From contig CM026422.1 in NCBI GenBank assembly GCA_014871385.1, positions 20,264,177 to 20,328,176 of the forward strand: DNA of 64,000 nt, written 5' to 3'. The translations under genes were made by a program, and so were the position numbers. This document shows positions 11,201 to 47,950 of the stretch, piece by piece (the first letter of the stretch is position 1; each line of letters starts with the position of its first letter). Origin of the DNA: Ceratodon purpureus (Eukaryota > Streptophyta > Bryopsida > Pseudoditrichales > Ditrichaceae). The notes beneath the pieces are model-generated. The model ran no database searches and had not been told where the DNA came from. It worked only from the letters and a program-made list of their open reading frames with translations.

Positions 11201-12964
11201 CCTCTGCATTCCTGAATTGCTGTAACGCCCCTCTCCACAGTTCCAAACAGTCCCCCGACGATACACCACAATCCCTGAGGTAACTTCCAATGCAGCTGCC
11301 CATCACTTCCAGGCTTAGTGGTAGACCAGCACAAGCATCCACAATATCGATGAACACACTTTCAAAGTCACCGATCAGAGTCCCTGATGCATCCCGAGAT
11401 AAATATTCTTGCAGGAACTCTCTCCTCTGCACTTCACTCTTGGCTCCCTTATATACATGATGTGAGAAAAGCTCAATATCCAGGCCTAATCCGTTCAGAA
11501 GCTTCATCTCATACTTCCCAACCAATGGTGCATGTTTACTCAGCAATTGCCACTCTCGACATGTGACGATCATTCTGGAATCCTCTCTCCCATTTATGAA
11601 ATCCATGCATGCTAGTAAATGACTGAAGTTTTCTTCAGAACCAACATCGTCCACAACCACCAGTACCTTGTGCTCCTTCACAAAAGCCTTCAAGTCCTTG
11701 AGGTACATTTCTTTTGAATCCTGAAAGTCGCTTAGTTGTGCCTCACCACCCGTCTTTCCATTCCTGATTCCAAACTGTCTTAACAATGTTAACAACACTT
11801 CATCTAACGTACCTTTCGATTTCACATCGTCCAGATAACTGCTTCTCTCGAAGTCGTTACAGATAGATTTGTAGACAACTTTTGCCAATGTGGTTTTCCC
11901 ACTTCCGCCCATACCAATCAAACCCACAATTCGAAATTCTTTTAGCATGCCTTGGACAATCTCCTCTTGTTTCTGAAACCTGACAAGGCTTTCCAACGCA
12001 AGGCTCTCTATTGCGAACGGAAGAGAAACCACATTTCTGTCCAGAACCTCCTTCAATCGCGTAGTCAAACATTGGTAGCTGGAATCCTTCTCAGACCTTG
12101 GCTTGCAAATATCCATATAGCTCGCATTCAAGGTCATGTGAGTTGCATTTGCGTACCTTGAAGACGCCTCTGCCACTACCAATTCACGAAACTGTCCAAG
12201 GTGACAAAGTTTCCAATGCCTAATTAGTACATGCTGTGGAAGAATGGAAGTTCTCAAGAAAAACACAACTTAATCATGAATATCCGTATATGCATAAGAA
12301 GTTTGAAGCACAGATGGTAACAGATACTGACCTCGGGTATTTCATGTGACTCGGCTACAACATGAAAATGCCATGATGGGCGTTTGAACTGCTCAAACTC
12401 CTGATTGAGCCGACCTGTCTCTTTGTCAAGGACCCCAAAATTCTCCAACAAGGGGCCCTTGGCACCACCGCTAAGATACAATCGGGATTTGGCCAGATGC
12501 GATCCATGGTGGGGTGTGGAATAGAAACAGAATGCATCGATGTTTTGCAATAGATTCTTGACCTTCTGGTTCTGTGAAAACTGAGGCTTGTTTCCACTTA
12601 TCACGATTTGCTTCGCCACCAAGCCACCAAACCCATGGCACACAAACACCACTGGAACACCGTTCTGCCCAATACGCCCAAAATCGACCATTTCTTGTAT
12701 GAGGTTCTCCCCAAGAAGAAACAAATCCATCCTTCCATCGGTGGCAGTCCGCTTAATACTAGCATCATACGAGAGTGCCAGCACTCTTGCAGAGGGGAAC
12801 TCCTTCGGAAGCCATGTCCTTGGCCAGAGATTTTCTGGTATACCATCTCGAGCCCAAGTCTTCCAGTATGCATCTTCACATTTGCCTTGCTCTAATCCAT
12901 GAATAAAGACCACCTCCAGGTGCACTGTTTTAGGTTTGTAGAATTCAAATACCGAGTCACTCAG
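8275..12964 (-). CDS. HNL-type NLR immune receptor (alpha/beta hydrolase-NBS-LRR)
   Basis: Predicted intracellular immune receptor. Three exons join in phase 0: 12964-12332 (hydrolase), 12233-10845 (NBS) and 10743-8275 (LRR), giving about 1,496 residues before any N-terminal extension. The first exon is SERAC1-like (VVFIHGLEQGK, then CHGFGGLVAKQ and FYSTPHHGS). The nucleophile-elbow Ser is replaced by Gly (codon 12632-12634). The NBS exon has P-loop GMGGSGKTTLAK, kinase-2 LVVVDDVGSE, RNBS-B SRMIVTCRE, GLPL CAGLPLSLEVMG, RNBS-D FLDVACFFCG and MHDQLRDMG. The LRR exon has 29 full 24-residue repeats (consensus LVNLSSLDLxGCxSLTSLPP) and stops eight residues into the thirtieth, with no C-terminal cap. 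Established: alpha/beta-hydrolase NLRs occur in liverworts and other non-seed plants. Inferred: this one signals without hydrolysis. Further 5' exons are likely, because the hydrolase exon begins at an acceptor. Confidence 0.88.
8278..10389 (-). repeat. 72-bp LRR-coding tandem array with a 648-bp block duplication
   Basis: Twenty-nine tandem 72-bp units, each coding one 24-residue LRR. A block of nine units at 9598-10245 is followed by an almost identical copy at 8950-9597 (offset exactly 648 bp). The few differences include a Gly/Arg change in the seventh unit and Ser/Gly at the end of the ninth. Such identity points to recent unequal exchange within the exon. The same periodicity creates long open frames on the opposite strand with repeated KLTKLP...GGKDVND, which are a by-product. 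Confidence 0.9.
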
Positions 12965-13149
12965 CTGCATCCCAAAGAACAAAGTAAACACTAGGTCAGA
13001 CCTCAAAGAGACAATGACTACATTGAATGCCTATAATGCAGCAGAATAAGATACCCTGATCGAATACATTTGAAAGCATTCAGATCGTAGTTCGTTAACA
13101 GCAGTATCAGATTCGAGGCTAACCTTTTTATTGAAAGCAAGTGGGTCGA

Positions 13150-21652: not shown

Positions 21653-21806
21653 TGTCCGATGCAGGGTCCGATGCAGGGGTCCGATGCAGGGTCCGATGCA
21701 GGGGTCCGATGCAGGGTCCGATGCAGGGGTCCGATGCAGGGTCCGATGCAGGGTCCGATGCAGGGTCCGATGCAGTGTCGGATGCAGGGTCCGATGTAGG
21801 GTTCCG
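21653..21806. repeat. Minisatellite of 12/13-bp GGGTCCGATGCA units
   Basis: Twelve tandem copies of GGGTCCGATGCA, partly alternating with a 13-bp form that has one extra G, with small changes in the last two copies. It lies about 0.7 kb upstream of the RH24 start. It is open in several frames in both directions only because the unit lacks stops. Confidence 0.9.
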
Positions 21807-23138: not shown

Positions 23139-23142
23139 TTAA

Positions 23143-23155
23143 CCCTTTAGTGCCC
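23143..23155 (+). repeat. Left terminal inverted repeat of the piggyBac element
   Basis: CCCTTTAGTGCCC directly after TTAA. It matches the reverse complement of the right end at all 13 positions. The sequences just inside the two ends are only loosely alike, so the repeat proper is short. Confidence 0.93.
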
Positions 23156-24029
23156 GGAGAACCAGGAAGTGGTCACTGAGGTAAGGGTTTTCGAAAGTCC
23201 GTTAAGTGTGTTACGAATTTGGGTTCGCGTTCTTCTGGACGGATTGGGGCTCTGTCAAGAGCTCTCCAATGCAAAAAAAAAAATCATCATCGGAGTAGTG
23301 GAACTAACTTTAATACGTGAAAATACGGTACTGTCGTATGAAAGAAAGAACGAAACGGGGGGGAAAGATGGGTTCTCGACGTAGTCGGGTGCAGAAACTG
23401 AGGCAATTGGTTCCAATTCGATCATACGTGTTCCCACGACTGGGAGGGTTGCGTTCTCTGTTTTCGCGAACATGAGTCCCCCATAACTGCCGGGGGTTGC
23501 CCGGGTCGACCCGTGAATTTCCAACGTCCTCACTCGCAGGGAAAACCCCTTCTGCTTCGAGGGTTGACGGAGGTGAGTAGAGGAAGCTGAGGCGACCAGG
23601 GTTTGTCGCATCCAAGGCGTTGTATTTATTTTGGTTGCGTGAGGGGTTTGGAAATGTCAGGGTTTGCAGAAGGATTTTTGGTCCTTACAGTCTCGAGTTC
23701 AGCGATTGGGTCACGGGGGTGCCAGCGATTGGAAGAAGGCACGATGGCGTCGGGGAGATTGCGGCGTAGGTTAATGGATGCGGCAGTCGAGGGCAAGGAG
23801 GTCTGGCCAGCGCATGGACGCGCTTGGGATGAGTGCAGGAGGCGGCCAATTTCTGACCATGGAGATCACGTCGTGGGAAGAGAACTGCTTCAGAGGCGTA
23901 GCATGGTATGTTGCGTGGATTGCAATGTTGTTTTATGCACAATCGTTGTGGTTAATGCTGCCGGCGCTGGCAGAGAGGGGGAGGGAGTAGGTCGTAGGAG
24001 AATTGGAGTAGAGGTTCACGCAATCTGCG

Positions 24030-27000
24030 GTGGGTGGAGATTTGTGGGAAATGCAATGGGAGATGTCACAGATTCGAGGGTCCGTGCTGGTCGCCGTCCC
24101 GTGCGATCAAATACTTGCATGCATTGGCCGCGACCTCCCTCAACGCCATCGCCATTCCCGAATGCGGAGCGTATCCTCGTGGAGTGGGGACAGACGCAGG
24201 GAGTTTGGGGTTACAAATTGGAAGTTCTCCGAGGATTGCTGCACAAGGATTACCTCCTGCGGTTGCCACTTCCGAGGGGTTGCAAGGGATTTGAAAATCT
24301 GCAGGGTTTGGAACCACGTCAATTGCGGTATCTATTCCGCAGGCAGTGTGCGGTGGTTCTTGGGTGGCGCCAGAGAATTGCCGAGGGTGATCCACATGGA
24401 TTCTCGGACGGGCTTAACCGGACCCTCAGAGAAGAGGTTTTCTGTGACCTCTAGGTGTGCACTCGGGGAAGACGAGGGTTTAGGGTTTCAGGAATCAGGG
24501 GGGAATCGGGACCGCGCGCATTGTGGAGAGCGAGCAGGAGAAGCCTCAATTCTGGGCGGGAGCGAAGGGGAGGGCACCTGCATGGGCTCCGAATGGTGTA
24601 AGGGGCCTACGGATTATGCCCATGTACATGTGCCATTGTCGGGACATGCCAATGGAGGGGGCAACGTGGGTTCAGGGAATGTAGCAGGGGCTGGCCCCTC
24701 CCACATGACATCGGTCGAGGTCAAGCAAGAGAAGATACGCGAGGAGGTCGTGCAAGGGGGTCTACTGGTAGCGGGTGCAGCTATGGGAGAGCAAAATGCT
24801 GAAGGGGGATGTGCAGTTGCAAGCAGTCTCCACGACGGCCCTATGCACTTAGAGCGCATGGGAGGTCTGGAGGACCTTCCCCCGGATGGAGTGACGACGG
24901 GTACTTGGAATATGGGAGAGAAGAACCATTTCCCGACCCCTCCTACGGGGTGCACACCAGCCCCTACAGTGCAGGAGGCGGCGCGATCGCTACATGGCAC
25001 GCCAGGTGGAATGGGGGTGAAGATCAGCAAGAGGACCGGTAAGCCAGTCAGAAAATATGAGAGAAAAGCCAAAAAAAAATCGGAAGATGGTACGACTGGG
25101 GAAGGAACGGGCTCATTTGTGGGGCAGGTAACCGCGATGATCGACACAATTACCCGTGGAGTCCAAGAGGAGGTGGAGCGAGGGATCATGGGGGACCATA
25201 TCCCCGAAGACTCTGATGTGCAGCCGATGGGATGTCAGGCGAGTGAGCATGCCAGTAGGGGCAGGGGCAAGCGTAAGCTCACGCAAGGCCCGCGTCAAAG
25301 AGGGACGGCTGGCAGTGGTAACAAGGAGGCATCAGCACGAGAAGTGGCGAACTTCGGAGAGGTGAATGTGAATACCATGTCAACGTCACCGGCAAGGCGG
25401 ATTCGGAAGGGGAAAGCAGTGGCTAAGGAGCGGAGCTCGGACGTCCAGCACGAACGAGAAGTTGGAGAGGAGACGCAGGGGAGAGGGAAGGTGCTGGAGC
25501 CTCAGGGCCCATCAGCCAGGGGAGCAGCCCATCCCACGCATGTCGCACATGAGACGCCGGGGACAAACCTTGGGGACTCAGCGAACGATAACGTGCATAT
25601 CAACGAGCAGGAGGTGCTTGACATGGACTTTGCTCCATACAGTCCACCTGCCACTAGGCGCAGTGTGGGAAGACTTGGTGAGCCTTCACGGGCATTACGG
25701 CGTTGCTTGTTCCAGATGCGGAGCGGCACAATTACGGGGGCTCGCAACACAACATTGGACCGCAATCGTGAGCGCACAGGTACGACTCTGTTGCGTGTTC
25801 AGAGCTGCATGTCACTTATTTCACGAATCATTTCCTTCTTCGTCCATGTCGGAAGTCGTTGCTGAGGGTAACCATATGTCTGTGGTATCGGGGGGGGAGG
25901 GGGGGGGGGTTTGCGAAGGATGTAGTAACGGTTTTTTTTTGGGAATGTTTCACTGTAGGCACACCTTGTCCACATGCCGCGGAGGAGATGGAGCCGCTCC
26001 TCTGCGATATGGAGGGCCAATTTCAAGCTGCTGTTGAGCCAGTACTTAGCACTGCGGGGACAAGGGAGCGACGCCAGGCTTCAGAGGAGGTGTTGCAGGT
26101 GCCACCCAGACGCGGACAGTTGGAGCCCGAATTGCAACCAGATGACTTCCTCGATCCAGCAGCGAGTGTTGCAGAGCCATCCCCGGATCGTCTTGTCATG
26201 GACGACCTAACTGACATGTCCTTAGGAGGTAACGTGCTTAGGAAAGTTGCTGTGAATGTAGTAGACATGCAATGGGGGGGGGAGTCCATTCAGAATCCGT
26301 CTGGTCAGGTCTGCGGGTGTGTGACTGGGATATGCGTTGACGAGGAGGGAGACGCCTGCTTCGAGGTGGATTTCGGTGCATGTTTTGGAGTCCAAAGCAT
26401 TCGGCAGCGGGATTGCATGCCATGGTTGCCAGTTCCAGCGACAGAGGAACACCGACGCGGCTTCCATGGTTTACTGCAGAAGGCTGTGGCAATGCCATGC
26501 ACATCCACGGACATGCAGGCACTGTCTTCAAGGCCAGCTCCAGCGGACTGCCCGCCTACGCAGGGGAGTGCTCGTCCACGTAGAGGCATTCAGAATTCAG
26601 GAGGCAGTGTCGACGGCCAGGACTCCGACCCTGACTGGGTGCCGGAGGGGCCTCTTGCTGGAGCACCTGAGAGTGGTGGCGGGAGCGGAGGGCAGGGGCC
26701 GCGTTGGCCATGCGACTTTTCGAGTGGAGACTCGGAAGAAGACAATAGGAGATGACGTGGAGGCGCTGCTCGGAGACCTCGGCCAATACAGAAGCGGGCC
26801 AAGAAACGAAGAGGACGACCCCTTCGAGGAGAGGTACAAGGAGCAGAACTGGCATGCGAAATCTTGGTCGCTGCTACCTCGGAACGGATTCTGTGGACCG
26901 CACCCTGGCTCAAGGATCGACTACCCCGAACTGATTGGACCGGTGCAGTGTTTCCTGGATATCTGGAATGATCCCATCCAGAGAAAAATTGTAAAGGAAT

Positions 27001-28703
27001 CGAACGCTTATGCCGAATGGACTGATCCCGTGACAGGGAAACGGAAGGGTGGAGAAGAGATACAGGCTAAGATCACGCTAAAGGAGCACAGGAAATTCAT
27101 AGGAATATGTATCCTTATGGCGGTCAGAAACCAGCCACGCGTGCGAGACTACTGGACGGTGCACACCGATGCTATGCATTGCGGGAGTGTGGCGAGCACG
27201 ATGCGAAGGAAGCGTTTCCTGTACTTGTTACAGTGCTTGCATATAGTGTCCAAGGATGCTGTGAGGTACGACCGGGCCGACCCATCCTATGATCCCATTG
27301 CACAGATCCGGTGGCTTCTGGACACCCTCGTCCGGAACTTTCAGTCCCTCTGGAACGCATCGCCATATCTCTGCGTTGATGAGTCCATGGTTCCATACAA
27401 TGGAAGGTACTGCTCATTCAAACAGTACCTTCCATTGAAGCCAATCACACACGGAATCAAGGTGTGGTGCCTCTGTTGCTCCGTCACCAAGTACGTGCTG
27501 AATCTGGAGGTTTATGTGGGCGCTGCAAATGAAGCACATGCTGGTCTGCCTCAGCATGCGTGCGGGTCGGGTGGAGGAGTAGTCTCACGCCTCACTTCAG
27601 GGTGGGAGGGGATGTGGTATACGGTTGTCATGGACAACTATTTCACGAGCCCCATGCTCTTCGAGAATCTGCTAACCCGGGGCTTCTACGCGGTGGGAAC
27701 GGCGCAGCAGAAAAGGGTGGGATTCCCCACAAGTTTACGAGTGCCTGACAAGGTGGCACGGGGGTCGCTGGAGGTCCGTGTACACAGGGATCGAGAAATG
27801 GCAGCAATCCACTGGCAGGACACGAAGGGGGTCAGCTTCTTGTCAACTGCAGCGGACCCAATGCAGCGAGGTGGAACTATGGTCAGCCGACACCATAGCG
27901 GTGGAAAGTCAGAAATTCCGACCAGTCCTATTCAAAAATTATACTCGGCCATGATGCGGGGTGTTGACACGCAGGATCAGTTGCGTGCCAGTTACACAAC
28001 GCAGATATTCACCAAGAAATGGTGGCATAGACTGTTTTTTTTTGGGTTGGACTCTGCCACCACAAACTCTTATCTACGGTACAAGCACATGTGTGCTGAC
28101 GCTGGGAAGAAAGCGGTTGACCACGAGAGGTTTATGCTCCTACTTGCGCACGGATTGATGGAGTGTCCACTAACAGGGGATCCTCCTCCCGCTGCTACCC
28201 CGCGACGATCTGCCATGTCCCGCCAAACTGCCGAGGAGCGCCTCGAGGAGACGCCTCTCGCTGCGGAGGACCCGGAAGCTCCTGGAGCAGAGGAGATATT
28301 TCTTTCTCAAGACTCCGTTAACGGGGCCGCTCCTGAGGGCAACCCCGACCCCCATAGTGGAAACCATTCTCGAGCCGCAGAGCATACTGGGCCACGGAGC
28401 ACCAGCGCCGGAACCTCCGCGAGTGGGGGGGGGAGGCGCAGATACCAGGCGAGGAGTCCGGGTGCAAGAGGTACTCTGCCGACTGGCCCCCCACAACGGC
28501 AATCAAGCAGCGCAGGGGAGAGCTGCAGCCCCGCTCCAAGCCTCGCCAAGCGGTCCATGCCCTGCCACAGCATCAAGGGGACACTTCGCAGAAGATGTCG
28601 GGTGTGCAAGCGCCGCACCTATTGGGTGTGCAGAGCATGTCGAATGTGGTCGATGTGCCCTGGATCTTGTTTTCTCGAGTTCCATGGGAGTACACACATA
28701 TGA
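24030..28703 (+). CDS. piggyBac transposase (DDE_Tnp_1_7) with one frame break
   Basis: Cuts and pastes the element at TTAA sites. The first long exon runs to 25779; GT at 25780 and AG at 25958 define a 179-bp phase-1 intron whose removal joins two open frames exactly (ERT-G-TPCPHAAEEME). The second exon reads an acidic N-terminal region (DSDPDWVPEG, SGDSEED). Its frame stops at 26755, and the catalytic core continues in another frame from about 26740 to 28703. No credible intron links them, so a frameshift or sequence error at about 26740-26900 is likely. Core: GPVQCFLDIW, VDESMVPYNGRY (first Asp), VMDNYFTSPMLF (second Asp), MRGVDTQDQL (third and fourth Asp). The C-terminus has the cysteine-rich CRVCKRRTYWVCRACRMWSM motif, ending CFLEFHGSTHI. 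The true start is unclear; ATG 24582 (MGSEWCKG) is an alternative. The 5' region, up to 600 residues, is unusually long for the family. Confidence 0.85.
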
Positions 28704-29483
28704 CAGCGGTTGTTTTTTTTTTCTCTTTTTTGGCAGAGTGGAAGCGATTATTGGATACCCCTGGGTTTCGCCGCTGGATGCACCGTTGGCGGTAATGTCC
28801 ACCATTCTCGAGCCCCATAGAGTATTTGCTTTCCTGCTCGTACAGTGCTCTCACTAACTCTTCGCTCTTCATGCAGGCAGAAAACTTGGGCGATTTATGA
28901 CGTCTCCGTTGAGAAAGCGCGAAGGGCAGCTGCTTTGCGTTCACCCCCATCGCCATAGTGTGCGGGAGTCGTTGTGGCCTCCATTGTCGGATGCGGGGGC
29001 TCGGTTCTTATTGCCTCAAAAGCCTTTCTTTGTGTTTTTTTTCCTCGCACAGCGTATCCTGTCAAACACAGAGCTTGCTCTATTTTGCTGACGTACACCA
29101 GTCCTGACGTCTTCTTCACTTCAGGTCTGTCCCGTCTGTGCTGTAAATCGTCCTCTCCATTTCTTCGACTGCTTCCCCCATAGTGCCTGTAGCCTCATCT
29201 CGGATTTGATAGAGATGGATCCTAGAGCGTGGTCCCTATCTACCTGGTACGGTCTCATTATATGTAACTTCTCCTAGGAGATTTTCTTAATAAATTCTGA
29301 TCATCTTCATTCAGTTCTCCTTGTCTAACTCCGTAGTGATTGTCATCACTAACCATGTGTAATACCCTAACCCCCATCCGCCTTAGTCCGAGCCTGGGTC
29401 GTGCTTCTGGTTGTCCTGCGCAGGTAGGCCTCAAGGCTCATGGGCCCTGAGAGTGGTGCTACGTCTGGCACAGTGATGTCTCG
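28704..29483. other. piggyBac interior downstream of the transposase
   Basis: No supported gene. Probable 3' UTR of the transposase transcript, including T-runs near 28710 and 29035 and AATAAA-like sequence near 29290. No second terminal repeat lies here, so the cargo to the right belongs to the same element as the transposase. Confidence 0.45.
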
Positions 29484-29702
29484 GAGCAGGCACCTGCTGC
29501 GAAAAAGGAGGAGGTGGCTCCATCGGTTGAGGAGGCACCGTTGGTTGCGGTCCATTCAGCTCCCGTGGTGAAGGAGGCTGCTGCTCCCTCGGAGGAGGCA
29601 TTCATTTCAGAGTAGAGGGCGCTGGCTGCACCTATCGAGGAGGCACCATCTGTTGTTCATGATGCGTCTGTTAGCGCTGTTATGAATCCTGAGGGACCCT
29701 AG
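29484..29702 (+). pseudogene. Pro/Ala/Glu-rich coding relic inside the piggyBac element
   Basis: One frame reads irregular repeats of the type APxxEEAP (for example KKEEVAPSVEEAPLV, then APVVKEAAAPSEEAF). A TAG at 29613-29615 interrupts it; the same frame then continues (APIEEAPSVVHDA) to a second TAG at 29700-29702. No start, splice site or domain can be assigned. Composition and rhythm are those of a low-complexity region of a plant protein, so a captured and broken host exon fits best. No donor gene is in the window. Confidence 0.45.
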
Positions 29703-29756
29703 GTACTTGGAATTTGTAATAGTCACTTGCTCTCACTCATTTTTTTTCAAATGTTC

Positions 29757-30092
29757 ATGATGATAAACTTAGATTCTCTATTTCAGATTTTCCTGATGAT
29801 AAACTTAGATTCTGTTTTTCTAATTTTCATGATGATAAACTTAGATTCTGTTTTTCAAATTTTCGTGATGATAAACTTAGATTCTGTTTTTCAAATTTTC
29901 ATGATGATAAACTTAGATTCTGTTTTTCTAATTTTCATGATGATAAACTTAGATTCTGTTTTTCTAATTTTCATGATGAAAAACTTAGATTCTGTTTTTC
30001 TAATTTTCATGATGATAAACTTAGATTCTGTTTTTCAAATTTTCATGATGATAAACTTAGATTCTGTTTTTCAAATTTTCATGATGAAAAAC
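29757..30092 (+). repeat. 36-bp minisatellite inside the piggyBac element
   Basis: Nine full copies and one partial copy of a 36-bp unit, ATGATGATAAACTTAGATTC followed by a T-rich 16-bp half. Copies differ by single bases. Because 36 is a multiple of three, the top strand is open throughout (MMINLDSVFQIF repeated). There is no sign that this is translated. It lies about 400 bp upstream of the B3 gene and could belong to that gene's promoter or leader. Confidence 0.9.
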
Positions 30093-30489
30093 TGATGATT
30101 GGGCTCGTCACTTCTTGTACCTCCGCAGGCAATGATTGGACTAATTACCCGGCTGTTGTTGATTCTCATCATCAACCCATACTTCATTTTTGGCGACAAA
30201 TCCGATTTCCCGATCCGATTTCCCCTCCCCTGAGACGTCTTGTCCGGTAATGTCTTCACAGACTCCCCTGTCTCGTCAACGCCGACTGCCCCTCATGAAT
30301 GCCGCCGACACAATAAATAAAGGCCGTCTTCGCCTCATAACTGCCGCCTTCTCCGACTCTGAGGTACATACCCCTCACCCTGAAATCTATCTCCCTCCCC
30401 TACACTCTGTACTTTACCTCACACCGCCCCCATACTCCCTCATTTTCCACGTTTTCTATTCCAAGTACGCTGACTCTAAGTGTGGAACC

Positions 30490-31949
30490 ATGGCTGGCGG
30501 AAGTTCGCATGTACATATGCAGGAGCTGGAGGATGTCAAGGCTTGGTACTTCACTGTCCATGTGACCTCGAAGGTTCACCGTGAGCGCCTGGTAAGCGAC
30601 CTCAGTTCCTCCTCCGATTTCCATTGGCCATAGCTGAGAACACGGTGTGTGATGTCAATGAGATTGAGCTCATCTGCGAGTACTGCATGGTCCTTAGAAG
30701 GCAAATTCTTTTCAGCTCCATTGTCTTTGCAGTTGAATGAATTGGAGGCTCTCTTACCGAGCATGTGCTGCTGGATTTCAGGATATTCCGAGTGCCTTTG
30801 GCCGCCGATGTGGTTTTCCCAGCCAAGTGCACTGCAAGCTCATCACGTCCATGAGCAGGCAGCCGGAGTGGCCCGTCATGTTCCGCACCCATGGCGTCAC
30901 TGACCCTAGGGTGTCCGCCTTTTCCATCGGAGATGGCTTCCCGAAATTCATGGAGGACAACAACATACAGCTTGGGACGCTCCTGATCCTCGAAAGGGTG
31001 GACAACGACTTCCTACATGTGACAATCTACCGCCGCCCTGACGAGACGGCCCCGGTCCTAACACCTCCACCGTCCCCACAAACGGACCTCCGCCCTCACT
31101 TCCGCAAGACACTTCGTGCCTGCCATGTCCGGGTTTCCAAATCCACCCGTCTGGTAAGCTCCCTCACTCTGCTACGTTACTGCGTCGATCTGGTCTTTGC
31201 AAATCCGGTTACAAGTCAGTAGGGGCTTTAGAATGCATATGCCTTGATGGGGAAGCATAGACTGTGAATAGGAGAGCCGGAGAGAGAGGACAGAATGTTG
31301 GAAAAGCAGATTGAATTGTGGAGTTTTTTTTTTTTTTTTTGTTTTTCCGGGAGCTTGGTATTTGGGGCTCTTCGGGGTCAATGTCGGTTTCAGAGCAGAC
31401 CATGGAGACCTCGTGGTACTCAGTCCGGAGTGGAATTTGTGAGAGAGCAGCTTCTGAAATTGAATTCATATCACCCGATTCGGCCCTTTAGATGCGGAGT
31501 TCGGGTTCTGGGTAAATAGGTTCTTATGACTCTTGAATTAGCTGCAGTGTGAGGTACGTATGATACACAAAACTCCTTTGATGGATAGCGTTTCCAGTGA
31601 AGAATGTGCGACACCTGTGACTTAGAGCACATTATGAAAGATTCAGTCTCCACGACGGCTGTAGAGATATATCTATTACATACTAATGCCTATTGTCTGA
31701 TCTCAGGACATCCCCACTGCGTTCTGGCGCAGCCTGGCATGGGAGCGCTTCGACGGGCCTTGGTACACCTTGGAGGGGCCGCTTCATACGGTGCTGGTGA
31801 AGTCCGCAGTTTATTGCTCTGCCAAGCAAACCTTCTGCTTCCTCACAAAGGGATGGGTAGACTTCGTCGCCATGAATCGCCTGAATCTGGGGGATACCTT
31901 GGTTTTTACTCTCGTCGGTGTGGCAGAATTCAATGTGGCAACGGTGTGA
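30490..31949 (+). CDS. Two-B3-domain DNA-binding protein carried by the piggyBac element
   Basis: Probable nuclear DNA-binding protein of the plant B3 superfamily (REM-like in having tandem B3 domains). Three exons, 30490-30591, 30782-31153 and 31707-31949, all phase 0, give 238 residues. Start ATG 30490 sits in a good context (AACCATGGC). Exon 1 codes 34 residues ending VHRERL. Exons 2 and 3 each begin exactly with DIP(S/T)AF, the first strand of a B3 domain. The first domain contains QPEWPVMFRTHG and GFPKFMEDNNIQLGTLLILER; the second contains WYTLEGPLH, LTKGWVDFVAMNRLNLGD and TLVFTL. The preceding exons end ERL and TRL at the same GTAAGC donor, so the two domains look like duplicated exon modules. 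No stop or frame break is seen. No EAR or activation motif is visible. Host-gene capture is inference. Confidence 0.85.
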
Positions 31950-33139
31950 GTCAGCGGCCTGAACTGGGACTTTCTGTACAGGATGCGGCGGTTCTAGAGG
32001 TTCTTCTCGTGGACTGAATTTGGGAGTCCGTGCTTGTAGCTGGTGGGAGCAGGGAGTGGAGCCATTTTGTCTTGACGAATTCTGTATGTAGGTTCTACTT
32101 ACCCCTTGCTAATAGTTACATGTACAGTGCCTGAATTTGGTCTCATTAGCTTCGGAGATAGAGTCCACTCCAAGACTTGGACGACATGCAACACTCTAAT
32201 GTACATGTGTAAATTTTTTGACTCTAATGGCTATCACTTTGCCCCTAAGTTGTCCCATATCTCTGTTATCCCCTTTTGCCGAGCTTCCGAGGGGAGGGCA
32301 ACCGCTTTTGTGTCAGACTTCTGCTGAACGGGACTCGCCTTCCCCAACCGCCTCTACCCGTCCATTCCGCGGGTCCCCTTCACGGCCAGTGTCGTTCCCC
32401 TTGCTGCCGGGTTTTCTGGAGCTGGTCGCTCCCCTCTCTCAGGAGCGGTGCCGTGGTCGCTCCCATGAAGTCTGTTCGCAAGCCCCGTTGATGCCCTCGG
32501 AAAGATGGGACACCTGTCGTCACAGGAGTGGGTTCTCCCCAAACTGAAAGGAAAACTACGGTGCAAGTGCACTGTATGGGTTCTGTTTTGTATTTTGATT
32601 TTTTGCGGGATATTGGTAGTGATTTTCGGGGGTTTTTAGATTTCCACTACACCTACATGGGCTAGGCATGATTCTGACCGCAGGGATTGCAAGAATTCGT
32701 CCCGGAGGTGCTCAAATTCGATGGGTGTGACTCTGCTCTGGACCGTATAGAGGAGGGACTCTTCCACAGAAAAAAATCTATATCAATTCGAAAAAAATTA
32801 ATTTTGCACTTGGGTTTCCTTTCCCTCTTGGTACTCCGTGTTGACATTCCCGTCCAGGGCACAGTCGAATTCCTCCATTTTATCCCACCTCACATGTGTT
32901 GGATAACCGGGAGGCACTCAAACCGTATGACTGTTCTCACACCAGTTTTGCTACTCAAATACACGTTAATTTCTCCGAGTATGTTCAAATTCACTCCGAA
33001 CTAGAATGTCATCATGAAAGCAGATCAAGGTAGCTACCATTTCAAACGGATAGATTTACATTTTGCCTTCACTTGCACCTCCCATCGAACAAGATTCGTC
33101 ACAGTGTCAACAAAAACCGGTTTCCCTCAGAAAGTGCTT
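31950..33139. other. Right part of the piggyBac element, no firm gene
   Basis: Follows the B3 gene up to the right terminal repeat. It contains open stretches (32218-32547 and 32687-33004) without recognisable domains and with plausible splice sites, for example AG before 32680. More captured exons or 3' UTR are possible but cannot be supported. Confidence 0.4.
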
Positions 33140-33152
33140 GGGCACTAAAGGG
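33140..33152 (-). repeat. Right terminal inverted repeat of the piggyBac element
   Basis: GGGCACTAAAGGG followed by TTAA at 33153-33156. It is the perfect inverse of the left end. Confidence 0.93.
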
Positions 33153-33156
33153 TTAA

Positions 33157-38399: not shown

Positions 38400-39241
38400 T
38401 ATTCTATGAATTAGTTGCATGTTATCAAATAAAAAGATTATATAAAAGCAATAATTAAATATGAAGTTTGAGTAAAACTTTAATTAATTTTACATGGACC
38501 ATTCAAAATTTTCAAATGGATTGTTTAAAGATTCATACAGATCTTACAGAAATCTTATAATGATCTTGTATTGACTTTCTATGAACCTTGGATTTGACTT
38601 TAAACAAACTTTTAATGGATCTTATATGGAATTTATGTAACTACAAGTGGTCTTTCTATAAACTTTTTATAGACTTTATATGAACGTTATATACTTAGTA
38701 AATATTGTAGCAACGAGCTTGACTTGTATGAATTAAATTAGCATAACTGACTTTAATACAAAGATTTAACTTAGATATTCAAAAAATTCAAGTGTTCTCA
38801 AGCTTCAAAAAAAATTGAAATTGAAAAATTAAATAATTTGATATTGTAAATTGATTAAAAAACAAAAAAATTGTACTACAATTCTTCAGGGCGGTTTACA
38901 CTATATACCAAGAATTCATTCCATGAAGATATAAAATTTGTAATTGGCTTCATCAACTTGTCTTAAGATGACTTGGATTTGTACTACCAGCAAAAAAAAT
39001 GACCAAAGCAGTTAAGGTCCTTAAAAGGCCTAAAAATAGGCCTAGTAGATAATGTTGAAGGATCTTTTGGATGTTGTAATGAAAATAAGAAGAAAAAAAA
39101 TAAGAATAATAATTCCGTCGACAAGGAACTCGAAAAGGATTTTACCCCAAAATAATATGAAGAAAAATCAGCACCGTGACCGCCGCCGTCGTCGTCGTGA
39201 CTTTTGATAATCTTTGGTATTAATGATCCTATATGGTTGTG

Positions 39242-39281
<40 letters not shown>

Positions 39282-40740
39282 TTGAAGTTGGAGTTGGAAA
39301 CTTTAAAGGTTGTTTGAAAGGTTATATAGATTATAAAGATGGCTATTCAAAAGGTTATTGCAAAAAAAAAATTCAAACAATATTTAAAAATCAATTAACA
39401 TGTTTTAAAAACAAAAGCAAAGCTCAACTTCATTCATTTTTTGTGTAAATTTTATTTTATTTCATTTTTATATGAACACTTTTCATTTCTTGCTTGTTAG
39501 TTTTGATTTTTTTTGGAATATTTTTCACAAAGTGGTCTTCAAGCAATTTTCAAATTTACACACTACAAACCATCATTCAAAAACGAGTATTCTATTTTTT
39601 AACTTTACTTTAATTTCGTCGACGATGTACTCGGAAAGGGTTTTTACCCAATAAAATTAGTCGGGGTCGGTGTGGTCATGATTGTCATGAACCTTCCAGC
39701 GCTTGCAAGTTCCTATATATACATTTATTTATTTATTTCCTAAATGTGAGACTTCACACTTCTCTCATAACTGCCGCAATAGATACTTCATTGTGAAATA
39801 TTTTAATTTATTTTCAAATTAAAAAAATCTAGAGTTTATATCAAAAGACATGATAGGTTATGATTTTTGTCAACGGTTGTGCGTAGCATTGCGTAGCCCT
39901 AGTATAATTATTCTATAAAATAGAAAGTTAAAAAAAAGGATATAAATTTGTTTATTTTTTTTTCTTTTGCACTATAAAACAATGTTTGGTCTGATTTTTT
40001 TATAACCATACAACACTTTACTTAAGGCCTCAGAATTTTTTAAGAAAATATCTATACTTAAAAGTAAAATTCCTTGCCAATATGGCATATATACATCCCA
40101 ATTGATGTCTTGCGTAACTTCTTGCTTGACACTTACGTTTTTGCCAACATCTATGCATTTCTACGCTAAGATCTTGTATTTGTAAGTTAAAATCTCTACG
40201 TTTTTTTACTAACATCTCATTTTTTTGACAACATCTAGTCAATTTTGATGTTATAAAAAAAGGACGTTCAAAATGCCAAAAGTGATGTTCATTTAGAGGT
40301 CACTTTTCAAACCGCCAATGTTTAGCGGAACGCCTACATTTTTTGAAAACAATCTAAAAACATGGGTTTCTCATAGTGCTTTAAGTACCATGGCCAAACA
40401 TGTATCTGATTGGGTAGTTGTAAATTCAAAACTTTGGTATTGCACTAAGTCTTTAAAGAGTAATGAGTAAACCAGTGGAAAAGAGATTAATCATACATAG
40501 TATATTTGGAAGATTTGAGCAAAGTTAGAATTTAGTGTTAATGCAAAGAAGCAAAAATTAACCTCTGATGCTTGTCTAAATGTAAATATTTGGAACCTAA
40601 AAAATTTAATCAATGCAAAGCTACATCAATATATTAATAAATTATGTATATTCAATATATTTGAATATTTATTTTCAAACAATGTAATTAATGGATTTAT
40701 GGTTTATTTCCTAATTAAATTTTAGATTTATCGTAAAATG
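38400..40740. other. AT-rich intergenic block with A38 run and a diverged direct repeat
   Basis: GC content falls abruptly near 38400. No gene was recognised. A pure run of 38 A lies at 39242-39279. A similar phrase occurs twice about 500 bp apart: CGTCGACAAGGAACTCGAAA at 39116 and CGTCGACGATGTACTCGGAA at 39618, each followed by a TTTTACCC motif. These could be the ends of a very short LTR-type element, but no primer-binding site was identified. Confidence 0.4.
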
Positions 40741-40743
40741 GAT

Positions 40744-41079
40744 TTATGCACGATAGGTGCCAGTACCATTTCTACAGTGCCAGAAAAAATCAATAAGCTG
40801 ATTGATGGAACTTATCGGTGCGTCATCGGGAAGATACGCCATAACCGCGGCTTCTACAGGACTAGGACTGCCTCCGGCGTCCACGTCTAAATGTACATGG
40901 TCTGGCATCATGTTGGGGGTGTTTGGCGAGTAAGAAGACTCAGCTCCTCCGGAGCCTGGAGTGCCTCTCATGCTTGCCCTCGTTGCCATGTCAGCTTCTA
41001 CGGCCTGATCCACCGATGGCAAGACTGTTGCGACTCGGTTCACTTTGGTTCCAGATTCTGCAGTCTCGCCTTGAGACAT
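40744..41079 (-). CDS. Hypothetical 111-residue ORF in a GC-rich island
   Basis: Not recognised. A GC-rich patch of about 450 bp inside the AT-rich block holds an open frame with start MSQGETAESG, ending DFFWHCRNGTGTYRA. The middle is Ser/Pro/Gly-rich (SSYSPNTPNMMP), and PDDAPISSINQLIDFF precedes the end. The composition differs from the flanking DNA and the LEA gene, so an inserted fragment of another gene or a transposon ORF is likely. No terminal repeats were found around it. Confidence 0.35.
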   Translation of the reverse strand: MSQGETAESGTKVNRVATVLPSVDQAVEADMATRASMRGTPGSGGAESSYSPNTPNMMPDHVHLDVDAGGSPSPVEAAVMAYLPDDAPISSINQLIDFFWHCRNGTGTYRA

Positions 41080-41542
41080 AGAATCAGCTTGTGTGTTGTA
41101 CCATTTCTACAAGTCCATATAAATCTTAATAAATACAAGATGCATACATCAACTGTATCACAATACTTTTCCATTAAGAAAGTAACTGCAGCCCGGATAA
41201 CTTAAAGAGACTTAAAAGTTTTTTTCAAATCTAAATTAAAAATTTATTTAATTTTTCTTTATTTAAAAAAAACAATTACACTTTTCAGTTTTTGGTTTAA
41301 TCTTTCATTCATTGAATATGAACCTTTCTAATTTATAAAAGGAAGTTTTATAAGTTATAGTTGATGTAATTTAATTGATTTTTATTATACAATGAAATCA
41401 AAATACCTTTTAAAAATGCAAAAATTCCATAATTTTGTTGTTGGTGATATTTCATATGAAAAAAAATGCAAGATTGAATTATAATGAACTGTTTGAGAAG
41501 AGATTTTAGGTCTAAAAATAAAAAATAGAATTCAAAAAAATA

Positions 41543-44137
41543 ATGATGAATATAATAGCATTGACAATGTTATTTTCTTCATTGGGCTTAGTTATGGTAA
41601 TGTTACCAGAATCTATTCTTGTGATGTCATCGTTTGATGAAGAGAATGCAACACCTGAAGCTTCAACAATAAATAATATTCAAGAAAAGATAGAAGGGTC
41701 AACCAAAGACACGTTAGTGAAAGGTGTAGATATTGTTGCAAAACCAATTGAAAAAACTGTGGGTTGGTTTAGAAAAAAACCAAAGCCAGTGGATCATCTT
41801 AATGTTGCTAAAGAAAAAATTGTTATTGCTAAAGAAAAAATTGTTGTTGCTAAAGAAGCCATGCAAGATGCTAGCATAGAATTGAAAGATGCAGGCATAG
41901 AATTGAAAGATGCAACAATCGAAAAACTAAATTCTATTGCAATCGATGCCAAGGAAACAGCTACTAATGCATATCATGCAATTGGTAAATCCTTTTTCTC
42001 AAATGTGCAAATAAATTATTTATATGATCTTGCGTACATCTATATTTTTGCATTCTTTAATGTTATTTTGTTAGAGATTGCCATTTCTATATATTATAGA
42101 TTATGTCATGATGTTATAGAAGATTTTTTTAAAGTATCTCTAGGTGGCAATCTGCTCATTTTGTAGAAGATTATGTGGATGAAAAAAAGTCACAAGCGTC
42201 AAAAGCTACAAAAAATGTAATAGATAAAACCAAAGAATTGACAACACATGAAATTCATAGTATATATGATAATGCAAAAGTTTTAAGTGATTCAACCTAT
42301 AATTTGGCTATTGCTGGTAAAGAAAAATCTGAATCTCAAATACGTAGGGTAAGTTTTTTTTTTACTATTTATATCCTTAGAATGATTTTAAATATTATAG
42401 TATCATTAGAAGATTGCCATTCATTGTAAGAATTTTTAATTTTTTTGAAAATTCATTTAAAATTGTTCCAAACAACTATCAAAAAACTTTTGTTATTAAA
42501 TATGTTTGAAAATCTATAATATTTATTAAGACGTAACGTTCACAATTTTACACATGATTTTATACAAATTACTTATAGTGCAGATTGAATCAAGAGTAGA
42601 GGACATAGCAGAAGATGTATACAATTCTGCAATTCATACATTTGGATCAACAAAAGATAAAACATATGAAATAGCTGAGGGAGCACAAAATACACTTTCA
42701 GATGCAACTGGATATATGAAGGAAAAATTTCAAGACATTGTTGTACCTAAATTCAAAGATGAAGCATATGAAGGTATCATGAGGTCTAAAGAAGTCATGG
42801 ATGACAATGCGCAAGTAAGACCAGAAAATAACTACAAAGTTGATGATGATGCATTTGAAGAAAAAATGATGATTGAAGACGGTTTTGATTTAAACATTAA
42901 AAAGGTTGGTCGTGAAATTTTAGAAAAAACAAAAATGGTTGCTTGTGAAACAATGGAATGTTTACAAGCAAAAGCGCATGACTACAAAGCCAATTCGAAC
43001 AATGAAATTGAACATATATACAACCGTAAAATGCCAAATAATGGTGATGATATAGAAACCTCAAAAGGAAATACCATTAATTTTAATGAAAACATAGATT
43101 TGATGGACAAAAATGAGAAGACACGGATAGAAAATGGTGTAAATAAAGTCATAAAACCTGAAAACTTCAATGATGAAATGGATAACATAGATGATTATTA
43201 TTATCAAGAATCAGAAAAAGGTCATATCAAACCTGAGTATACTAGGGATAAAATTCAAGATTCACATTTGGAGGTGGGACAACACAAAAAAGATATCAGA
43301 GATTATTATCGCCAATCACACAATCATGATTATGTAAACATCGACAAAGATGATGATGATAATTTTCTACAATCTAAACAAGGTGAATTTAGAAAAATGA
43401 CTCAACAACAATTTTCAAGATTTATGAAATATGAAGAAGATAATGAAGTGGAGGAAGTTGGTTTTTGGAAAGCCTTTTTCTCTAAAAGACCTAAAGGTGT
43501 TTTTCTCTCTGTAATTCGAGCACTACACCTCTTCACTTTTTCAATGGTGTATGGATCATCTTTCTGGATGACTTTTGTTTCGGGCATCATCTTATCAAAG
43601 CATATGCCTCAACAACAATTTGGATATGTACAAAGCAGGATGTTTCCCATATACTTAAGGATTTTGGCCATAGGACAAAGCATTTTATTTGTTTTACAAT
43701 TTATTATGCATCCATGGTTCTCAGCCGATAGTATTGAAAGATGTCAACTATCCAACTTTGGATTAATGATTGTATCAACGTTAATCAATGCTTATATTCT
43801 TGAACCTCAAGCTACAAAAGTACGTATCTCATCAATTGTCAAAAGTACAACATCTATATAACTATTTTTTTATATCATATTCACACATTTTATTAATATT
43901 TAAATTGAACAGGTCATGTTTGAGCGGTTGAAAGTGGAGAAGGAAGAAGGACGAGGTTTAGAAAGTACATTGTCGCCAATAGATGCAAGAATATTGATGG
44001 AAGAACACAAAAATAACCTCAGAAGTATCAATCAACAATTTCAATCATTACATGGCTATTCATCAGCACTCAATTTGATTAGCTTAGGAGGATTGACTTG
44101 CCATTTATGGCACTTGGCACATTGTCTTGTCATTTAG
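41543..44137 (+). CDS. LEA-like protein with C-terminal TMEM205 (DUF4149) domain
   Basis: Membrane protein of the plant family that fuses a late-embryogenesis-abundant-like coiled region to a TMEM205 domain; Arabidopsis members are annotated as LEA-domain proteins. Precise role unknown; desiccation or membrane stress is inference. Four exons join in frame: 41543-41984 (phase 1), 42167-42348, 42584-43819 and 43913-44137, giving 694 residues. The N-terminus has a hydrophobic segment after MMNIIALTMLFSS (signal peptide or anchor). Next come alternating Lys/Glu/Ala helices with repeats such as VAKEKIVIAKEKIVVAKEA and ELKDAGIELKDA, then a long acidic linker with Asp and Asn runs. The last part has four hydrophobic helices starting VIRALHLFTFSMVYGSSFW and the family signature VMFERLKVEKEEGRG, then LNLISLGGL. 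There is no frame break, although codons are as AT-rich as the surroundings. The start MM could be 41543 or 41546. Confidence 0.85.
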
Positions 44138-44784
44138 ATTTTTTTTTATTCATGTAAAATGTAATAAAAAATGATTTTGAACCATAAGTGCTTAATTGCA
44201 AAAAAACCATGGCAATTGTTTTTTCAAATCAAATTTCTAAGTACTTTTTTTGTTATTAAATATTTGAAGTAATGACCAAAATACCAAATTCTTATTTTTA
44301 AGCAATTTTTTTTTTGTAATTTTTTTTATTATATGATTTTTATATACATAGGAACTTAGTACTTGACACGACTAAAATGATCATATATACTGTAAAACAA
44401 ATGTCATTTGTGTAATACAAGTTTTTCCATGCAATTACAAACATTTATAATTTCATCATGACTCCATGTTAAGAAAAAATAAATCTTTTTACACACCATT
44501 ATATTTTGTCAAATAACTTAAAAGTTGAAAAAATAAAATAAAATTCTTCTTTATTTTTATGGCAAGCATGAATAATGTATATTTCCATCAAGTACATTGT
44601 ATCATTGTCTATATAATTAAAAACAATCAAAGGATATAAAACTTATGCAATGCACATGTCAAATCCTAGATTGAACTCAAATTACTCATGTGGTGTCAAA
44701 AGTTGATTGCTTTTCAAATTCTTCATATACAAGAATAAGATGAATTTGCAAATTATTAAATTTAATATTCTACTATTGCAATGT
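44138..44784. other. AT-rich spacer between the LEA gene and the subtilase relic
   Basis: 3' UTR of the LEA-TMEM205 gene (AATAAAA near 44161) followed by AT-rich sequence with no recognisable feature. Confidence 0.45.
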
Positions 44785-45554
44785 TGTGAATGATGCATTT
44801 GCAGCAACTACTTTTATTCTCATGTAATGTAAAATATTTACAATAATAAAATAATATACACTTATATGATTGCAAAACTTCTTATTATTATTCTTTGTGT
44901 GGAACTTCAACACACTTGGAGTTACGGTGATCTTTACATCTGAAAGAGCTATAATCTGAGAAGAATAAGTGGACTTCGCGCTTCCAGTTACATTTTTAAA
45001 CGTCCTTTTCATCTTCATGGATATGTATCAACAAGAAAGACGTTCCTTGTAAATCGCTCAGAATGAGGGATAATTCATGTTTTCTACTCCCACATATTTT
45101 CTTGGGACATTTAAGCTTTTTATTATAATTTACAAAAATCTTCATATCCTCAGCTGTGATGTTAAACGCACACAAAAAATCCACATAATCCTGAAGACCC
45201 ATGTCATACACCAAACCTCGATTCAACGCTTTCTCCAATTGCACTTGACCAGCTTCATTCTAAAAGGGAGTTGCCTTAGCCATTGTAACAACATTAGCCA
45301 TATATCTTCCATCCCATGTTGTCAATTCTTAAGGCAGTGGTCATCATGGCCAACTTGATAGCTGCAGGACTCCAATCCGGTTGGGCAGCCTTTAACAAGG
45401 CTACTAATCTTGTAATGAGCGGACATGCCATGGACGTACTAGAGACGATGTTGAAGGCTACAAACATGGGGTCAGATCTCATCTTGGTTATGCTGAGATT
45501 TGGATTCCAAGTTGCAAGGATTTTCACTACAGAGGCATAGATGTTTGGCTTCAA
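44785..45554 (-). pseudogene. Subtilisin-like serine protease (S8A) relic
   Basis: C-terminal part of a plant subtilase, broken. Reading leftwards: the catalytic Ser box STSMACPLITRLVALLK followed by AAQPDWSPAAIKLAMMTTA; after a stop and frame change, ALNRGLVYDMGLQDYVDFLC; then NVTGSAKSTYSSQI and VKITVTPSVLKFHTKN, which match the Fn3-like C-terminal domain. The protease-associated domain, Asp and His boxes and prodomain are missing. The usual GTSM is STSM, and the PNLNYPSF-type segment is scrambled. The right side (45555 onwards) shows no more of the gene. Non-functional. Confidence 0.8.
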
Positions 45555-47950
45555 AATCTATGGTTTCAAAGAATTAGGTCCTATAATTATCAGATTGTGT
45601 TGTGTTTATCAACCACTGCAAATCATTAGGGCCTATAATGCAAATTTATAACCACTAACATAAGCCATTGTAAATATACATAGTAAAAAAATTATACATC
45701 CACTTTATCAAGGAAGTTTTATTCAAAAAAAATAGTTATAATTTCCAAATATTTTATGTTGTAATTAAAATTGATTTTGAAATGTTTTTTAATTTAATTT
45801 TAAAGTTCATATGAATTTTTTTAATGAAGAAAAAATACAAATATTAGTTGAAAGATACATTTTGTAAAAATATATAAAAAAGATATATATATTAAACTAA
45901 AGTACTTTTATTTTTTTGTTTGTGGTCTAAATCTATATTTAAAAATATGCAATACAGAGTCAGTTTTATTTTTATGACTTTCAATTTTTTTTACAAAGAG
46001 ACCGTACATGCATTCGTCACATGAATTTTGTAAGAACAGACATAAATATAATAAGTGCATGGAATTGAATTGTTTAATGCTCTTGTTGTTTTTATATTGT
46101 TTTGTTTTTACAATTGTTCATTCTACGCATATTGTTGTGGGCATGTAGCTATGTAGTTTAAAATCATTTGTTTGGGGGGTTGTCATTGTTTTTTTTGTGC
46201 TATGGTTGTAGCTAGATGTGCGTGAATCCTTTTTGCTATAGTGTGGTCACAATTTTTAAGGCACAAGGATTTATTACAGTGATTTATATATCCATTCTAC
46301 TAAGGCATTCTACAACAACAAAATACTAATAGCTTCCTAAAAGTTTACATTATAATAGCATTAATAGCATAATTTTATTATTAATTTTAATTTTTAATAT
46401 TTTACTTAAAATATTTTATGACTACAAAAAAACTTGAACGCACATTAAAGTGTAAATATCATGAATATCTACAAAAAAAAATATAAGATTATTATGATAG
46501 ACTAGATTTATTTTGCATTGGATTCAAACTTTACAAGTTTATAAAAAATTGTGAAATTCAAAAAACTTATAAATTTATTTCTACAAGGCATTTGTAAAAC
46601 AATACAATTTAAAAATACTATACACTTATTTCATTGAGGTGTTTTTGAATAACCAAGAAATTAATTTATTCCAAAAAATTAATATTGTAATAAAATAATA
46701 TAACTTTTTGTTCTATTTATTTGATATAGAAATATATGTGATATATTAGGAAACATGAATGCATGTCAAATAAATACTTTGTGAAAATAAACATATAAAC
46801 ATGTAAAAAGTCCACAATTTACCAAAAAAAATTGCATTGACTATTAATTATAATTAAAATTTTATATTTAAAAAAATTAAAAACATTAGTTAATATTCCA
46901 ATACTGATTTCTTTAAAGATTTAAACTTAACAAATTACGAATACGTTAATATTGTAGATTATGTAAAGATATACACAAGCATGTAATAAGAGGATTGTGT
47001 TAAAATTGACATTGAAAATATTGAAGAATGTTAAACAACGCATAAATAACCCTTTAAATAATAAAAAAAGGTTGCATGTTTTAAAAAAATCACATAAACT
47101 AGGTTTTGAGCAAAGATTTTTTAGAACCTACATACGAATCGACAAACCAAAAAAAAACCTATCTTGTCTCATACTATAAGTATTTTAATTAATATTTTAA
47201 AAATTAAGATTATACAATAATTCAATTATTATCTTTTGATGCAATTTTTATTTTGAAAAGAGTTTTTTATGGGAATAATTTTATCTAATAGAAAGCATTT
47301 TGTATAACGGATAAGATTTCAATCAATTTATATGGTAAATTTAAATACATTTAAAGTCAAAATTTATACATCTTAACACTTGTATAAACCATACATATTT
47401 ATGCCCCTCAACAAGACTCGGTTTGCGAAAGCCCTTTGCACACAACCCGACTCCACCGTTGACCTTGGCCTCAAGATCCCTCCCAACTCGTGAGCCCCGA
47501 TGGGGGCTCGTGTTGCACAAATGAAATAGCATATACTTTATAATATTATCACGTAATGGTAAAAATATCATCCAATATTATTTTCTGAGGCTGCCCAAAT
47601 ACTTGTAGAACTCCAGTGCAAGTAAATTACCGTAGCTTACTAACACCTTTGTACAAAAATAAATCTAAATATAGGAAACAAAAAATTTAGAAAATTATGA
47701 AGTCAAAAAATCGAAATTAGAATAAATTAGTTTTTGCAATATTTTGTTGGTTCTAAGCCATTTCAAGTCATTTTTACTGATTTTTGGCTAAAAAACAAAA
47801 ATTGAGAAATTCATTTTGGAGGTGTCGAACATCATTTTTTCAAAATAATTAAATATTTGACGGAGCATGGTTGAAGCTGCTAGTAGGCTACGGTATGCAT
47901 GAGTACTCCTTTCATAATTAGCATTAAAATTACGTACAACATGTAGAATC
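45555..47950. other. AT-rich intergenic block
   Basis: Mostly very AT-rich with no gene recognised. A GC-richer patch of about 120 bp at 47400-47520 (GCCCCTCAACAAGACTCGG onwards) resembles an old repeat fragment but has no partner in the window. The composition changes to moderate GC close to 47950. Confidence 0.45.

Follow-up and report, generated by a model that had tools for sequence, protein, structure and literature searches.

In the moss Ceratodon purpureus, a piggyBac family carries a two-B3-domain gene that was probably passed between piggyBac lineages

Structure of the element and its genes

A 64-kb stretch of the 362.5-Mb Ceratodon purpureus assembly (C2:20264177-20328176, hereafter the window, to which coordinates without a contig name refer) contains a piggyBac transposon of 10,018 bp, both TTAA sequences counted, at positions 23139-33156. 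The element is bounded by an inverted pair of the motif TTAACCCTTTAGTGCCC, at 23139-23155 (+) and 33140-33156 (-). An end-motif search of the 64 kb at three or fewer mismatches returned exactly these two matches, where 0.13 were expected and none of 100 shuffles held two or more. Within each motif, the TTAA target duplication (23139-23142 on the left, 33153-33156 on the right) adjoins a 13-bp terminal inverted repeat, CCCTTTAGTGCCC, which starts with CCC and agrees between the two ends at 13 of 13 bases. A first-pass annotation of this DNA had described TTAA and perfect inverted 13-bp ends, and that description is borne out. The element carries, all on the + strand, a long 5' reading frame, a transposase gene, a tandem array and a three-exon gene encoding a protein with two B3 domains. 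The array, identified by repeat search at 29743-30093 (+), lies 5' of the B3 gene and contains 9.8 copies of a 36-bp unit; the corresponding arrays contain 7.8 units in the copy of the element on contig C11 and 4.8 in that at 15.36 Mb on contig C5.

B3 is a plant-type domain, and B3 proteins constitute a large family of plant transcription factors. The B3 gene of the element comprises three exons in our gene model (30490-30591, 30782-31153 and 31707-31949, all +), separated by GT-AG introns, and encodes 238 amino acids. Two stretches of the protein match B3 (Pfam PF02362, E 8.9e-16; 58.1 bits against a cut-off of 30.1), with most of the first domain and the start of the second encoded by exon 2 and the second domain, through to the stop, by exon 3. 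The gene is thus intact and on the strand of the transposase, as had been annotated. Both introns are in phase 0 and cut each domain at the identical place, between RL and DIP, and these matching positions suggest an internal duplication behind the two domains. All named matches of the protein are from C. purpureus, and several of them are annotated as hypothetical proteins. One such match, P0008 (KC19_5G156000, 181 amino acids, C. purpureus), is contained unchanged in the B3 proteins of the C11 and C5 15.36-Mb copies and differs from that of the window at 1 of 181 positions. Another, P0009, comes from chromosome 3 of a second Ceratodon genome (M758) and differs from the B3 protein of the C3 copy at 1 of 181 positions, and for this reason the C3 insertion may be common to both isolates. 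A search of solved structures with the B3 protein returned only TAL effectors and similar proteins, with no stretch passing on its own, and was set aside.

The transposase core and C-terminal Cys-rich domain are encoded at 26325-28703 (+; Pfam DDE_Tnp_1_7, E 3.9e-76). The DDE_Tnp_1_7 match spans about 26940-28073 and includes conserved Asp codons at 27378, 27633 and 27966, which we take to specify the catalytic residues; the Cys-rich segment lies at 28596-28688, and its Cys pattern is common to those relatives that reach this end. A protein search with the transposase found seven relatives, and a sequence search of solved structures found two more, piggyBat (9c0f) and transposase 6x67; a search of viral contigs found neither a transposase relative nor an exact end motif. 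An N-terminal part, homologous to P0002, P0003 and P0007, is encoded at 25959-26755 (+), out of frame with the core in the window copy; in P0002 and P0003 the N-terminal part and core reside within one protein. The first-pass description of a full piggyBac transposase therefore stands for the DDE_Tnp_1_7 domain, the conserved Asp codons and the Cys-rich end, and is slightly too strong for the window copy as a whole, in which the N-terminal part and core are in different frames. A Tudor- or chromobarrel-like stretch is weakly predicted in the N-terminal part (about 26240-26422; best Tudor E 0.013), in a structural model with a mean predicted local distance difference test (pLDDT) score of 49 and moderate confidence only at residues of about 95-155. 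Upstream, a reading frame of 617 amino acids (24012-25779, +, its exon end placed at a presumptive GT donor) remains open to 25865 and has no Pfam match. A frame of 521-633 amino acids is present at this place in all six uninterrupted copies described below, and one of 615 amino acids in a related element on contig C13; this frame probably belongs to the transposase gene as a 5' exon.

Copies of the family and constraint on its genes

The left 262 bp of the element have 16 matches in the genome, itself included and one of them partial, and the right 300 bp have 22, itself included and several of them partial. Six uninterrupted, full-length copies with a B3 gene are located in the window and at C11 3.26, C5 15.36, C6 37.07 (V 37.07 below), C5 0.84 and C3 3.08 Mb. 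Contig C6 (110.5 Mb) is presumably the V sex chromosome, if KC19 is, as we assume, isolate R40. TTAA, the piggyBac target-site duplication, is found on both sides of all six, and the flanks differ among these six, which were the ones compared. Two more B3-bearing copies, at C1 0.81 Mb (C1:780711-811681) and C7 4.70 Mb (C7:4637112-4698525), are split by large insertions. Eight copies on seven contigs thus retain the two ends together with an undamaged B3 coding sequence, which supports the earlier proposal of a gene-carrying piggyBac that moves as a unit in a plant genome. Since the end-to-end structure repeats in other copies, the two ends in the window belong to one insertion and do not stem from two.

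The remaining family members are of several kinds. One split copy has no B3 gene (C6 63.6 Mb; C6:63575639-63629136), and for one copy, at C6 53.2 Mb, the right end was not found. A related element of 8,925 bp at C13 0.81 Mb has the same ends and no B3 gene. Five short non-autonomous elements of 928-953 bp, at C2:13.97, C5:19.84, C3:18.18, C2:7.27 and C5:11.30 Mb, can be recognised at either end; in two of these, a single base of an end is changed. Pairs of ends 31, 53.5 and 61 kb apart were considered as giant piggyBacs and rejected; they align as one element split by other insertions, the alignment covering the outer parts in the case of C7 and C6. The insert measures about 20.6 kb in the C1 copy and is larger in those of C7 and C6, which share sequence with each other in parts. 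At C6 53.17 Mb, a left part of the element lies next to tandem repeats of about 128 bp each.

All eight B3 genes have an open coding sequence of 717 nucleotides and GT-AG splice sites. The ratio of nonsynonymous to synonymous substitution rates (dN/dS) ranges from 0 to 0.44 over their 28 pairs, 9 of which were compared with neutral simulations of 2000 runs each. Between the window and C3 genes there are 44.5 nonsynonymous changes against 62.1 under neutrality, a value as low in none of the 2000 simulations. None of 2000 simulations had so few amino-acid changes in any of the comparisons between subfamilies (window with C3, C5 0.84 Mb, C1 and C7). Within the C3 group the corresponding counts were 2 (C3-C5 0.84 Mb), 6 (C3-C7) and 103 (C3-C1) of 2000, and among the closest copies, where the test is weak, 109 (window-C11) and 212 (window-V 37.07 Mb). 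The B3 gene is therefore under purifying selection between the two subfamilies. Three pairs allowed dN/dS to be computed for the transposase core as well, with values of 0.12-0.19. Recurring in this element type and under constraint, the B3 gene has the character of an element-borne accessory gene.

Linkage of B3 genes to piggyBac elements and exchange between lineages

A genome search with exon 2 of the B3 gene, in which the best 150 of 340 candidates were scored, yielded 147 B3 loci once merged. Two transposase queries, for which the best 99 of 1054 and 93 of 1101 candidates were scored, together yielded 172 distinct loci. Of the 147 B3 loci, 55 have a scored piggyBac transposase no more than 8 kb away; random placement gave a mean of 1.24 and a maximum of 6 in 1000 trials, using estimated lengths for contigs C4, C9 and, in this linkage test, C12, and 40 kb for small contigs. 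All 55 are on the downstream side of the transposase, 49 on the same strand and six on the opposite strand; in three of these six a second, same-strand B3 gene then follows. The 55 loci, which involve 52 of the 172 transposase loci, comprise six of the window family and 49 of a lineage found with a query from contig C8. Two loci chosen by B3 similarity alone, at C8 14.98 and C10 2.46 Mb, both have upstream of the B3 gene a same-strand piggyBac transposase about 35% identical to that of the window. At C1:3.91, C1:21.19 and C6:6.46 Mb, a pair of oppositely oriented B3 genes comes after a piggyBac transposase.

Among the loci scored, the association of the window family with B3 does not extend to its nearer relatives. 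Among transposase matches at least 90% identical to the window's, 6 of 8 have a B3 match within 8 kb, and the other two are the split C1 and C7 copies, both B3-bearing. At 70-90% identity, a scored B3 lies within 12 kb in 0 of 54 matches, fragments included; 28 of these measure at least 1.2 kb, and the C13 element and the B3-less C6 63.6-Mb copy are among them. The figure is 0 of 14 at 50-70% identity and 12 of 25 at 30-50%. The block that bears the B3 gene (approximately 28940-32732, +) has no blastn counterpart in the full-length C13 element, and a direct check of that element against B3 variants gave no match at E <0.05.

Exon 2 of the window B3 gene shares 76% identity with exon 2 in the C8 element, which carries the closest B3 outside the family beside its own transposase among the loci opened; the two transposases are 35% identical. 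Within the C8 lineage, B3 diverges faster than the transposase (at C8 3.6 Mb, 49% and 78% identity, respectively), so that 76% for B3 alongside 35% for the transposase is unexpected under joint descent. In a B3 tree, the window family and a gene at C6 47.84 Mb group with the C8 B3 (88/99), among the B3 genes of C8-type elements. The C6 47.84-Mb gene may belong to a C8-type element 21 kb away, yet it groups with the B3 of the window family. Taken together, these sequence relationships indicate that the B3 gene of the window family most likely came from another piggyBac lineage. Exchange is also seen within the family, where the C5 0.84-Mb copy is a recombinant of a transposase half and a B3 half: over positions 1-6500 of the element it follows the window subfamily (0.84-0.96) and over positions 7001-9500 the C3 subfamily (0.92-0.95), with the switch point around the 36-bp array. 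The final 500 bp are most similar between the window and C3 copies (0.94), and thus exchange has occurred there too.

Origin and role of the B3 gene, and surroundings of the element

Transposases of the piggyBac superfamily act in trans and move elements by cut-and-paste at TTAA. The window element would be one copy of a C. purpureus piggyBac family whose 10 kb move together, from one TTAA site to another, mobilised by its own transposase or by that of a sister copy, and a protein with two B3 DNA-binding domains would be the product of its usual second gene. The B3 module, which this family has in common with a distantly related piggyBac lineage in the genome, would most likely have been gained from that lineage by recombination between elements. 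The protein most likely binds element DNA and helps the element, whether in transcription, in counteracting silencing or in recognition of the ends. We regard this account as a whole, of a mobile piggyBac family with an exchangeable helper gene acquired from a distant lineage, as likely. Because the B3 gene is found again in further copies and in distant piggyBac relatives, it seems to be a functioning component that these elements can exchange, and not a passenger picked up by chance; it is probably a second gene passed between piggyBac lineages, and a plant B3 gene is presumably where it first came from. More tentatively, and with somewhat more doubt than belief, we consider that the two-B3 protein could be an essential, swappable regulatory module that recognises element DNA such as the 36-bp array, switches the element on or de-silences it, and is traded among piggyBacs and with a dispersed element type unrelated to them; a large share of the moss B3 family would then be transposon equipment.

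Several observations weigh against the account. At the ends, no subterminal repeat common to both terminal 600 bp was found above the shuffled level, apart from the 13-bp repeats; subterminal internal repeats at both ends are known from piggyBac itself and are not universal. In the window copy, the transposase changes frame between its N-terminal open reading frame (ORF), which stops at 26755, and the core ORF, whereas the C3 copy reads from the N-terminal part through the Cys-rich end in a single ORF of 955 codons (925 in the related C13 element); the window copy may therefore be disabled, or one base may have been misread. The transposase is also broken in the C11, V 37.07-Mb, C5 15.36-Mb and C5 0.84-Mb copies, leaving C3 as the only one of the six uninterrupted copies that reads the transposase in one ORF. 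The B3 gene, by contrast, is intact, which might point to selection by the host instead. The C6 63.6-Mb copy has lost B3. Only part of the candidates having been scored, the zero counts among intermediate relatives mean that no scored B3 is nearby. The B3 tree is based on 124 columns and has 3 of 12 inner branches starred, the window-C8 fork falling below the mark for strong support. Furthermore, 79 of the 147 B3 loci are assigned neither to piggyBacs nor to a second element type. The latter was recognised at C7 5.96 Mb, where a B3 of about 38-41% identity has no piggyBac transposase match in about 5.3 kb upstream or in the next 5.1 kb, and no gene reaches a Pfam cut-off. This locus instead carries an ORF of 263 amino acids, coiled-coil and weakly RING-like (L056 835-1626), from a very abundant, dispersed family (best 145 of 1301 candidates scored). 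Counting the 102 loci of this family at 54% identity or more, weaker and short matches excluded, such an ORF precedes 13 of the 147 B3 loci by no more than 8 kb, always on the strand of the B3 gene (random placement, again with estimated lengths for C4 and C9 and 40 kb for small contigs, 0.67; maximum of 4 in 500 trials), and none of these is among the 55 piggyBac-linked loci.

The first-pass annotation had proposed that the element captured plant coding DNA. In one rival reading, it took the B3 gene directly from the host and carries it as passive cargo. The plant-type character of the domain, which Pfam names B3, and the full-length C13 element without B3 fit this proposal. It is not the best account of a gene that is intact in eight two-ended copies, that is under purifying selection between subfamilies, and whose closest relative outside the family beside its own transposase, among the loci opened, sits in another piggyBac lineage; with 55 of 147 B3 loci linked to piggyBacs and a scored B3 near none of 54 close transposase relatives, we consider direct capture very unlikely. 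Vertical descent, with an ancestral B3 gene common to all these piggyBacs and lost in the close relatives of the window family, would explain why B3 is linked to lineages whose transposases are about 35-43% identical. The contrast of 76% and 35% between the window and C8 elements, despite faster divergence of B3 within the C8 lineage, the absence of a scored B3 from both intermediate identity classes and the recombinant at C5 0.84 Mb make this distinctly unlikely.

Selection could instead act on behalf of the host, the B3 genes being a family of host transcription factors spread by transposons and partly domesticated. Consistent with this, B3 is intact where transposase frames are broken, and several copies are annotated as Ceratodon hypothetical proteins; nevertheless, the high copy number, the dispersal together with element ends, the loss of B3 at C6 63.6 Mb and a transposase core that is itself constrained in the three pairs argue otherwise, and we think this unlikely. 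Finally, the sharp changes in base composition in the window might raise the concern that the pairing of transposase and B3 is an assembly artefact, a chance we regard as negligible given the same structure at eight places on seven contigs, different flanks in the six copies compared, and identical gene order in distant elements.

In its TTAA target, CCC-starting ends and DDE_Tnp_1_7 transposase with a Cys-rich end, the element resembles other members of the piggyBac superfamily (piggyBac, piggyBat), from which it differs in its length of 10 kb, its long additional 5' reading frame and the intron-containing two-B3 gene downstream. VANDAL transposases, by comparison, are Mutator-like. VANDAL of Arabidopsis encodes VANC, a sequence-specific DNA-binding protein with anti-silencing activity, whose targets are reported to be often tandem repeats that vary between related elements (PMC5735166). 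The moss element likewise has a transposon-borne second protein predicted to bind DNA, and a 36-bp array that varies in copy number. It belongs to a different transposase superfamily, VANC is not termed a B3 protein in the available portion of that paper, and any anti-silencing role of the moss protein is putative; moreover, the 36-bp array is not reported for the V 37.07-Mb and C3 copies, which counts against the parallel with VANC targets. Pack-MULEs, packed with gene fragments and moved by transposase supplied in trans (PMC6431247), are also plant DNA transposons bearing host-type coding sequence, whereas the moss element holds a complete three-exon gene under constraint, adjoining a transposase. 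With its complete gene, it is not a Pack-type element in the sense of a host gene fragment without a transposase of its own. Teratorn, a fish piggyBac-herpesvirus fusion reported to be 180 kb long and largely virus-derived, is a further piggyBac that moves with additional gene content (PMC5601938, PMC6431247); unlike it, the moss element carries one plant-type DNA-binding gene in 10 kb, which is found across piggyBac lineages. Among the matches listed in searches of one open-access library, no piggyBac-B3 pairing was found. One paper that names both Ceratodon and piggyBac (PMC10619864) is irrelevant, the word occurring in its available portion only as 'expression piggybacking'.

If piggyBacs do carry and exchange part of the moss B3 family, this would bear on the expansion of regulatory gene families, on moss gene annotation, where several of these B3 genes figure as hypothetical proteins, and on the ways in which DNA transposons acquire helper genes with sequence specificity. 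A single genome in which some related elements have B3 and others lack it also offers a natural experiment.

Outside the element, the GC content of the window drops at 1-5000 and at about 38500-48000, to 0.19-0.40 and mostly below 0.33 in 500-bp steps, and is mostly 0.40-0.60 elsewhere. The two low-GC tracts have in common an inverted repeat of about 140 bp (79%), and the second contains a DUF4149 gene (42530-43861) with a GC content at third codon positions of 0.25, the nine other reading frames measured being at 0.40 or above. A disease-resistance-like gene at 8275-13030 (-) encodes a DUF676 hydrolase-like part, NB-ARC and a leucine-rich part with 29 in-register copies at 72-bp spacing, a layout resembling that of a bryophyte hydrolase-NBS-LRR class. 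A tandem array with a unit of 12-13 bp, GTCCGATGCAGGG, is present at 21654-21806.

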